Virus record (IMG/VR): IMGVR_UViG_3300009184_000044
Coordinates: 1 to 64,000 of that record
Strand: one strand, 5' to 3'
Origin: a virus
Length of the DNA: 64,000 nucleotides
Position numbers and translations under genes: made by a program
Notes under the pieces: model-generated
Database searches by the model: none
What the model was told of the DNA's origin: nothing
What the model saw: the letters and a program-made list of their open reading frames with translations, nothing else
In this document: one piece after another, positions 2,668 through 57,230 of the stretch
How the letters are laid out: the number at the start of each line of letters is the position of its first letter
How positions within the stretch are numbered: the stretch's first letter is position 1

Positions 2668-4833
2668 GTGGACCAAATCAAATCCCAGCTGGATACACTG
2701 ACAGAACTCGCTGACGAACAAGTCGCCGAACTACAGTCATCTATCATCAGCCAATTTGAAGCGGTTGAGGGCGAAGAACCCACTCCTGAAACAGTTGATG
2801 CTATGACGTCACTTGCTGACGCTTTAGACACCGTCCGTGGTGAGCTTTCACGCCGTGAGGTACTAGCTGCAGAGCTAGCCGCTAAGGCAGCTGAGGCAAC
2901 CGCACGAGTAAAAGGCGAAGACGACGTTCAAACCGATGGAGAGGCAATGACCGACAATTCAGAAACCCCAGAAGCACCGATGGAGGAAGCACCGATGGAA
3001 GAAGTTCCAATGGATGCTCCTGTTGAAGAAGCTCCTGTAGAAGAAGTTCCAGCAGAAGAAATGCCTGCTGAAGAAGTTCCTGCAGAAGGTAGCCCTGAAG
3101 AAGAGGCCGGCGAAACTCCAGTCGAGGAAGATGAAGAGAAGAAGAAGGAAGCTTCTGAATACTCTGCTGAAACCGAGACCGCATCAATTATTGAAGGAGA
3201 TGGCTCAGAGCTATCTACCGAAAGCACACCAGAAGTTGTTGCCGATGCAGCACCTTCAGAACCAACCCACCAAGAAACTATTGCTCCTAACGAGCAGGAA
3301 GGGCAGGCCCCAGTGACCGCCGCAGCTGAAGAGAGCTTTAACGCTCCAGCAGACCGTCAGCCTGTAATCCAAGTAACCGAGGCCCCAGTAGCAATTACTG
3401 CTGGTGCTGACATCCCTGGATACACAGCTGGCTCAACCATTAACGACATGACCGAAGTTGCAGCAGCAATGGAGAAGAGAATTCATTCTCTACGTCGTGT
3501 TAACGGAGGAGATGGAGAGCAGCACATCGTTGCATCTATCACAACCCATTACCCAGAAGAGCGTATTCTTTCAACAGATGCTCTTTCAAACCAGGCTAAG
3601 ATTAACGCAGTTGTAGGCCAGGATGCACTTGTTGCTTCTGGTGGACACGCTGCTCCATTCGAAGTCAAGTATGACATTTACAACATCGGTTCAACCACCG
3701 ACCGTCCAGTACGTGACATGCTACCTAGATTCCAAGCAGACCGCGGCGGTATCCGTTTTGTTACTCCACCTAAGTTTGCTGGTGCAACATACGATAGCGC
3801 AGTAGGTATTTGGACAGCAGGTATCGACCAGTACGGAGCAAACGGACTAACTGCATTGTCACTTAGCGCGACTGCAATTTCTGGTAGCTCAGGTGCATGG
3901 GTAATTGGTGTAACTAGCAACACTATTCCAGTTGGCGCAAAGGTCACCTTTGGTACTGTTGGAACTGCTACAACACTAAGCAACGTCACAGCTAACGTGA
4001 CTGCGTCAACAAGCACCACTATTACCATCGACAGCACTGCTGCACTATCAGGCACTCCGTCTTCTGGTACCGTGTCTCCTGTGACAGTGAAGGGTTCATA
4101 CACTGTAGTTTCAGCTGCTGAAAATACCGTCTCAACTGACGCTATTACTCTACAGCTACAGTTCGGTAACTTGATGACTCGTGCTTACCCAGAGTTGATT
4201 GCTCGTCACAACGAACTTGCTCTAGTACAGCACGCTCGTGAAGCTGAGCAGAACCTACTAAGCAAAATTGGTACAGCTTCTACATCAGTAGTTACTAGTT
4301 CAACAATCGGTCTAGGTCGTGACTTCCTAGTTCAGGTTCGTCGTGCAGCAGTTGCTTACCGTTCACGTCACCGTATCTCCCCTAGCACTCAGCTAAAGGC
4401 GATTGTTCCACTGTGGCTATACGATGCAATGGCAGCAGACCTAACCTTGGCTCTTCCAGGAGATGGAACTATTTCTGTTTCAGCTGCTGAAATCCAGGGC
4501 TACCTAGCTGCAAGCAACGTAACTCTAGTTGGCTCACCAGACCTAAACTCCTTCGGAGCTCAGTCTGGTAGCGGTGCTAGCATTAACGCATTCCCAGCTA
4601 CCTTTGACTGGTACCTATTCGCAGAGGGTTCATTCTTGTTCCTTGATGGCGGTACTCTAGACCTAGGTATCATCCGTGACAGCTCTCTAGTTGGCACAAA
4701 CGACTACAAGATGTTCCTTGAAACCTTCGAGAACATTGCCTTTGTTGGTATCGAATCTCTAAAGATTACTTCAACATACAAGGTCAACGGTGTGACCGCT
4801 GCCGCAGCAACTGCAGTAGCGTATACCGCTTAA
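2668..4833 (+). CDS. Major capsid protein with acidic scaffold-like N-terminal region
   Basis: It has a GTG start with a strong Shine-Dalgarno (TAAGGAGG, 2656-2663). Residues 1-90 are helical (DQIKSQLDTLTEL..). Residues about 100-170 are a highly acidic Pro/Glu repeat built on units such as EEAPMEEVP and EEVPAEE, and the region up to about 230 is also low complexity. From about residue 245 the protein looks like an HK97-fold major capsid protein, with DRPVRDMLPRFQADRGG and a C-terminal TFENIAFVGIESLKITSTY strand pair. An insertion rich in Thr/Ser/Gly/Val (about 400-480) interrupts the capsid domain and looks like an exposed beta domain. The N-terminal part probably acts as a built-in scaffold (delta domain) removed by the upstream protease. 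The capsid assignment is well supported; the cleavage is inferred. Confidence 0.85.
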   Translation: MDQIKSQLDTLTELADEQVAELQSSIISQFEAVEGEEPTPETVDAMTSLADALDTVRGELSRREVLAAELAAKAAEATARVKGEDDVQTDGEAMTDNSETPEAPMEEAPMEEVPMDAPVEEAPVEEVPAEEMPAEEVPAEGSPEEEAGETPVEEDEEKKKEASEYSAETETASIIEGDGSELSTESTPEVVADAAPSEPTHQETIAPNEQEGQAPVTAAAEESFNAPADRQPVIQVTEAPVAITAGADIPGYTAGSTINDMTEVAAAMEKRIHSLRRVNGGDGEQHIVASITTHYPEERILSTDALSNQAKINAVVGQDALVASGGHAAPFEVKYDIYNIGSTTDRPVRDMLPRFQADRGGIRFVTPPKFAGATYDSAVGIWTAGIDQYGANGLTALSLSATAISGSSGAWVIGVTSNTIPVGAKVTFGTVGTATTLSNVTANVTASTSTTITIDSTAALSGTPSSGTVSPVTVKGSYTVVSAAENTVSTDAITLQLQFGNLMTRAYPELIARHNELALVQHAREAEQNLLSKIGTASTSVVTSSTIGLGRDFLVQVRRAAVAYRSRHRISPSTQLKAIVPLWLYDAMAADLTLALPGDGTISVSAAEIQGYLAASNVTLVGSPDLNSFGAQSGSGASINAFPATFDWYLFAEGSFLFLDGGTLDLGIIRDSSLVGTNDYKMFLETFENIAFVGIESLKITSTYKVNGVTAAAATAVAYTA

Positions 4834-55883: not shown

Positions 55884-56183
55884 GGGGATGACTGGTTTCG
55901 ACAGTTGTCTTGATGTTAGTGAAGCAAGCAGAAACGGCCACGCATTCTTAAAGTGTGGTAAAACAATAAATGCTGAACGTACTTCCGCATTCGCTCTAGC
56001 CGCGTGATTTAATCGCAACGCTTAGGCCCCTGACAAAGCACTAGTTCTAGGTGGGCAGTCAGGTTTTAAATAAATAGAACAACCCTCTCGTAGTGCCCTG
56101 CAATACCGTGGTTGGTAAAACCTAAGCTTGTAGAAGAATAACTGAATGTCAATTGGACCGGGGTTCGATTCCCCGCATCTCCA
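55884..56183 (+). ncRNA. ssrA: tmRNA
   Basis: The 5' end GGGGATGACTGGTTTCGACA and the 3' end with a T-arm (CCGGGGTTCGATTCCCCG) and CATCTCCA are diagnostic. GGGGATG pairs with CATCTCC (one G-U) as the acceptor stem. CCA is not encoded. The tag frame 55972-56004 reads AERTSAFALAA then TGA. The ALAA ending suits proteolysis by ClpXP-type proteases, and FALAA endings occur in actinobacteria. A phage tmRNA would rescue stalled ribosomes during heavy expression. Confidence 0.92.
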
Positions 56184-56241
56184 CGCTTGTAGACAGAGGA
56201 GCGTAAAGCGGTCTACCCGTCCTAGGCAACGGAATCTCCAA

Positions 56242-56313
56242 GGACTGGCGTAGCCAAGGTGCTACGAGTCGATTCGGTAAGTAGTAGTCGGTAGTGCAAA
56301 TCTACACAGTCCA
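56242..56313 (+). ncRNA. tRNA-like element without clear anticodon arm
   Basis: Exactly 72 bases. GGACTG pairs with CAGTCC as an acceptor stem with a following A; TAGC-CAAGGT-GCTA is a D-arm; GTAG-TGCAAAT-CTAC is a T-arm with a UUCAAAU-like loop. In the middle no 5-bp stem with a 7-base loop forms, so this may be a decayed tRNA or a tRNA mimic. The GTCCT at 56219 can also pair with AGGAC at 56241, which would break the acceptor stem. Confidence 0.4.
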
Positions 56314-56348
56314 CTCATGTAACATAAAACTATCTGGGAGGATACAAC

Positions 56349-56764: not shown

Positions 56765-57230
56765 ATGTGAGTGATTCGCCCCTCGTCACTCTTGTAACTT
56801 CGGGTAGTATCTCGTTGCTATCGCAAGGGGCACTTTTAGGCTCTTTACTGCTGAGTCCACAAGACCAACCAGCAGAGCGAAAGCTTGAGACGACCCGCAA
56901 GGGTGGGAACCTCTGGAACCAAGGTCCAAACTTGGGAAAGGTCAGTACTAGGTCTTCCAAATTTGGCGTGTCGAATTTGACAAGATTCAAATCTTTTGAT
57001 ACGCTGTAAGCAACAAGTTCTCGACGGAGAACTTGGAGTATGGCAGAATCGCTCCCACCGCCAGTGGGGGAGAAATGCAGTCTTGGCTCTTAGCGGAGTG
57101 GTTTAGCGACCAAACAAGATGTCTGCTCAAAGCGGTACTTAGAGAACCGCTGGCTAGGCAGTGATGGTAAAACGCAGTCCATCTACTCACACTAACCCCT
57201 TCCACTTCATTGTTGGTAAGGGGTTTTTAC
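56765..57230 (+). ncRNA. Large structured non-coding RNA (about 460 bases)
   Basis: No credible ORF occurs between 56757 and 57337. The stretch is dense in perfect stems: GAGTGA/TCACTC (56769, 56786), GCCCCT/AGGGGC (56778, 56826), ACCC-GCAA-GGGT (56893), CCAAG/CTTGG (56919, 56931), GCGTGTC/GATACGC (56966, 56998), CAAGTTCTC-GACG-GAGAACTTG (57014-57035), AGCGGT/ACCGCT (57131, 57146). It ends at a strong terminator. It is not tmRNA, and I see no RNase P or SRP hallmarks. The size and phage setting beside tmRNA recall the GOLLD/ROOL class of large RNAs, but I cannot match a family by eye. Confidence 0.65.
57194..57228 (+). terminator. Rho-independent terminator of the non-coding RNA
   Basis: AACCCCTT pairs with AAGGGGTT (57194-57201 and 57218-57225), with further CCA/TGG pairing inside, followed by TTTTT. 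Confidence 0.8.

Follow-up and report, generated by a model that had tools for sequence, protein, structure and literature searches.

The manA RNA class was proposed by Weinberg et al. (2010) as a riboswitch candidate located in 5′ UTRs (PMC2864571), and it has stood on riboswitch-candidate lists since 2010. The cis-regulatory label has been repeated for the copy in S-CREM1 (PMC9964418), as well as by the authors describing the Bifidobacterium megaplasmid pMP7017, on which tmRNA, tRNAs and manA are found together (PMC10832533). Also known as phage-borne structured RNAs near tRNA islands are GOLLD and ROOL, whose function is unexplained and which are much larger, with GOLLD members often exceeding 800 nt (PMC12286853). 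Our search of the open literature, which was incomplete in its coverage, returned no paper treating manA as a stand-alone RNA. The tRNA cluster of phage T4 yields the stable RNAs species 1 and 2, likewise unexplained, which are cut from the phage tRNA precursor; no open paper on these was found in our literature search.

Herein, we analysed a stretch of viral DNA of 64,000 nt (IMG/VR record IMGVR_UViG_3300009184_000044, positions 1–64,000; referred to as the window), which has a G+C content of 42 %. The first large ORF has matches among portal and head-protease families, its nearest counterparts being those of lake phage DSL-LC01 and of Microbacterium phages; as such, we take the window to belong to an actinobacteriophage, the hosts of which are perhaps freshwater actinobacteria. 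The isolated relatives DSL-LC01, Pumpernickel, Big4 and Mimi carry neither of the two RNAs, element B and manA, that are described below.

An RNA array downstream of the phage tmRNA

The locus is centred on a gap of 548 nt, extending from the stop codon of the upstream gene (56756) to the next ORF (57305), in which no supported gene was found. The features identified in and immediately upstream of it are as follows.

55884–56184, + strand: tmRNA with tag AERTSAFALAA (ARAGORN; Rfam RF00023, 115.6 bits)
56187–56314, + strand: element C, an unregistered conserved stretch right after the tmRNA (conservation; Rfam negative)
56766–56835, + strand: element A, interleaved stems, unsupported as a conserved RNA
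56838–56960, + strand: element B, a structured RNA of ~123 nt (~20 contigs, covariation, model match 155.7 bits)
56848–56853/56870–56875, + strand: element B hairpin CTGCTG/CAGCAG
56862–56866/56951–56955, + strand: element B pseudoknot AGACC/GGTCT
56893–56904, + strand: element B GCAA hairpin
56977–57005, + strand: candidate manA promoter TTGACA-17-TACGCT (9 of 12 consensus letters)
57011–57193, + strand: manA-class RNA (Rfam RF01745; covariation)
57014–57022/57027–57035, + strand: manA P1, a 9-bp stem with a GACG loop
57036–57040/57184–57188, + strand: manA long-range closing helix GAGTA/TACTC
57194–57229, + strand: intrinsic terminator AACCCC...GGGGTTTTTA (−14.6 kcal/mol), followed by a T run

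Folding the + strand of the gap gave −169.2 kcal/mol, with a z-score of −5.1 that was matched by none of 100 shuffles (the − strand reached −3.1), in agreement with the structured RNA that an initial annotation had placed in this gene-free region. The 9-bp stem with its GACG loop, the GCAA hairpin, the terminator and the tmRNA neighbour named in that annotation were all found, and its proposal of a free-standing RNA beside the tmRNA holds; that of a single large RNA does not, as two independent conserved elements are present with a candidate promoter between them. The gap is a modular array of two separate structured RNA genes, element B and a divergent manA, which are found apart in relatives and, in one contig (L022), in reversed order. 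That two small phage RNA genes within a shuffling tRNA/tmRNA array account for the locus as a whole is, in our judgement, probable.

Within the gap, manA was the sole Rfam match at gathering and permissive thresholds alike. This part of the sequence falls under RF01745, and the remainder, including element B, had no match. A scan of the whole window using fast filters missed manA, which was recovered by the permissive scan of the gap. Using the tRNA models of ARAGORN and Rfam no tRNA was detected in the gap, and neither element B nor manA matched them.

At the 5′ end of the gap, the GAGTGA/TCACTC and GCCCCT/AGGGGC stems, from which a pseudoknot or conformational switch had been suggested, do exist and are interleaved. 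Such a pair was, however, present somewhere in all of 100 shuffles of gap-length sequence, and in 20 of 3000 shuffles of the 79-nt piece that carries it, which folds unremarkably (z −1.58). This piece was kept by no relative examined. With interleaving at chance level in the gap and no conservation of the piece, the switch was rejected.

Element B, which gave no Rfam match, seems to be a phage RNA not described before. It recurs in about 20 phage contigs, in many of which it abuts tRNA or tmRNA genes. Its structure is testable. Aligning 20 copies revealed 24 cells with changes on both sides of a pair, against 7.4 in shuffles, and the alignment backs the hairpins plus the AGACC/GGUCU pseudoknot; at one pseudoknot pair, 12 copies have G-C and six have A-U. 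Hairpin positions tolerate changes in stem length with pairing retained. An AGGCU/GGUCU closing stem showed no both-side changes, and was replaced by the pseudoknot. In the window and in L009 the element is located upstream of manA, and in L022 downstream of it. L040 and L043 have it between tRNA-Leu and tRNA-Asn, whereas in L004 and L005 it comes immediately after the CCACCA end of tmRNA; a close relative, L046, has element B without manA at the same place.

The upstream member of the array is the tmRNA, and element C, directly 3′ of it, is 84–99 % identical in about ten contigs, in the same position. This stretch had no Rfam match at E ≤ 10 and was not called by ARAGORN, and its 3′ half (GGACTGG..CAGTCCAC) looks tRNA-like. 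It adjoins the 3′ side of tmRNA in L042, L044, L186 and L189 also, and in L046 a different tRNA-like element occupies its place. Element B would probably share a transcript with tmRNA and element C, from which tRNA-type processing would release it.

Structure and transcription signals of the manA RNA

The match to RF01745 (57017–57193, E 4 × 10−13) covers the full model (1–192) and scores 55.4 bits against a gathering cut-off of 55.2; the window RNA thus belongs to the class by score, by a margin of 0.2 bits. It shares with RF01745 the 5′ hairpin, the long-range closing helix and the multibranched core, but represents an actinophage subtype with a GAGUA/UACUC closing helix and two hairpins bearing paired UUAGCG loops, and is followed by a terminator rather than by coding sequence. 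The pMP7017 copy is alike in residing on an actinobacterial replicon, beside tmRNA and inside a tRNA array, but scores 41.5 bits, which is below the cut-off.

Relatives of manA were gathered by pattern scans of viral contigs. An alignment of 19 actinophage-type sequences showed changes on both sides in 30 of the 46 pairs, with 164 such cells compared with 52 in shuffles. The closing helix is invariant in this set, partly because the search patterns include it; across groups it is GAGTA/TACTC in the window and GGGAG/CTCCC in most marine members, with GGGTG/CACCC in three marine members, one exception apart. The covarying pairs, together with these paired differences between groups, therefore support the structure of the class, and the covariation in related phages that the initial annotation had proposed to look for is seen in both manA and element B. 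In the actinophage-type alignment, the same UUAGCG-type loop sits on two adjacent hairpins (alignment A2, columns ~85–88 and 100–103), which perhaps represent a doubled binding site. Outside viral contigs, blastn found no match to the manA domain in plasmids, and pattern scans of bacterial genomes gave none for the actinophage type and three contigs for the marine type. Against phages, blastn of the 5′ part returned chance matches only.

The candidate promoter has a TG one base upstream of its −10 box and implies a start at about 57012. In the window it scores only nine of 12 letters, a value also reached by 12 of 300 shuffles; visual inspection showed similar boxes at the corresponding position in L009 and L188. 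For marine manA, a promoter of at least 10 of 12 letters with its start at P1 was found in 65 of 77 non-redundant loci against 24 of 1540 shuffles, and a terminator after manA in 26 of 75 loci against 16 of 401 control places. Of 17 actinophage-type loci, 10 had a tRNA no more than 60 nt downstream of manA and five a terminator, giving one or the other in 15. Transcription of the window manA (~57011–57193) probably begins at its own promoter and ends at its own terminator. Many marine copies were additionally observed to have a recurrent terminator-like hairpin, AGACCTAAGATGCAACTC..GAGT-GGGCAGATGGTCTTTTT, ~20–50 nt on the 3′ side, the inner loop of which is conserved (L109, L111, L115, L140, L145 and others).

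manA among tRNA genes and competing readings

In phage ACG-2014f, manA (2481–2691) lies a single base from tRNA-Arg (ending at 2479) on one side and from tRNA-Asn (starting at 2693) on the other, and the GenBank record annotates neither of these tRNAs. The layout in S-B05 is tRNA-Arg (end 2486), manA (2488–2698) and tRNA-Thr (start 2700); S-H68 resembles ACG-2014f with different tRNAs, and S-CREM1 carries manA between tRNA-Leu and tRNA-Asn. In L018 the flanking genes are tRNA-Asn and tRNA-Asp, and many actinophage contigs have tRNA-Asn together with tRNA-Asp or tRNA-Gly. The regions in which tRNA genes are missing from the GenBank annotation are 2406–2764 of L055 (ACG-2014f) and 2412–3290 of L056 (S-B05). 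Unannotated phage tRNAs may explain the apparent 5′-UTR position of manA. The reading that every manA sits in a tRNA array was rejected, as the majority of marine copies have no tRNA beside them.

We consider it quite unlikely that, in this phage, manA controls the downstream gene in cis as a riboswitch within its 5′ UTR, the role originally proposed for the class (PMC2864571). Such a role would accord with the 43 of 70 marine loci in which an ORF begins within 60 nt of manA, and a promoter at the manA start is equally compatible with a 5′-UTR element. In disagreement with this, however, a strong terminator directly downstream of the window manA separates it from the next ORF, 112 nt away, for which no known function was found, and most actinophage copies, as well as those of several isolated cyanophages, have a tRNA on their 3′ side. 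Furthermore, downstream ORFs are mixed, comprising 33 families in the 70 loci (among them ssDNA-binding protein, transaldolase and Hsp20), with no common function found among those annotated. Across its relatives, manA begins either immediately behind a tRNA or at a promoter, and its end frequently coincides with a tRNA or a terminator; its sequence context therefore suggests a stand-alone phage RNA rather than a 5′-UTR riboswitch, at least in this phage. For the marine copies, a cis role is a possibility, since they are mostly away from tRNAs and, in many cases, an ORF begins within 60 nt.

A single RNA spanning 56766–57230, whether or not it is cut later, is unlikely. The full-length fold (z −5.1) with a 5′/3′ closing stem (TGTGAGT/ACTCACA) would fit it, and no terminator was found between element B and manA; against this, the stem competes with a manA helix that is conserved, whereas the 5′ piece is not, a candidate promoter lies between the two RNAs, and these occur separately, with their spacing altered or their order reversed (L022, L004, L040). 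To a giant RNA of the GOLLD or ROOL type we give practically no credence. The resemblance of setting pointed out in the initial annotation is real, in that the locus is a phage tRNA/tmRNA array as reported for these families (PMC12286853), but family identity was not borne out: Rfam returned only manA and tmRNA, whether gathering or permissive thresholds were applied, the gap has no sequence or structure match to either family, and the stretch is far shorter than GOLLD, members of which are often above 800 nt (PMC12286853).

Under the preferred reading of two separate RNA genes, both RNAs are most likely made as discrete molecules that act in trans during infection; we infer their transcription, processing and trans action from sequence. 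In relatives, the enzymes trimming the adjacent tRNAs would instead release manA from a tRNA precursor. The target might be the translation or RNA machinery served by the neighbouring tRNAs and tmRNA, a guess from the company that these RNAs keep. By description, they would be akin to T4 species 1 and 2 as RNAs released from a phage tRNA precursor. More tentatively, and short of probable, manA and elements B and C may form a guild of trans-acting RNAs in phage tRNA/tmRNA arrays, acting on translation or RNA turnover, with the riboswitch label wrong class-wide. Should manA be a stand-alone RNA released by processing, the hunt for its ligand has been misdirected, and the annotations copied into phage and plasmid genomes need correction.

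Two further loci were noted. In S-CREM1 (L047), the RNA cluster that contains manA also has a wcaG RNA (3246–3343), 47 nt upstream of tRNA-Met; it too is filed as cis-regulatory, and may deserve the same re-examination. In Rhodococcus phage Francesca (L002, 4241–4400), a long unannotated stretch between two tRNA-Lys genes is possibly another structured RNA.
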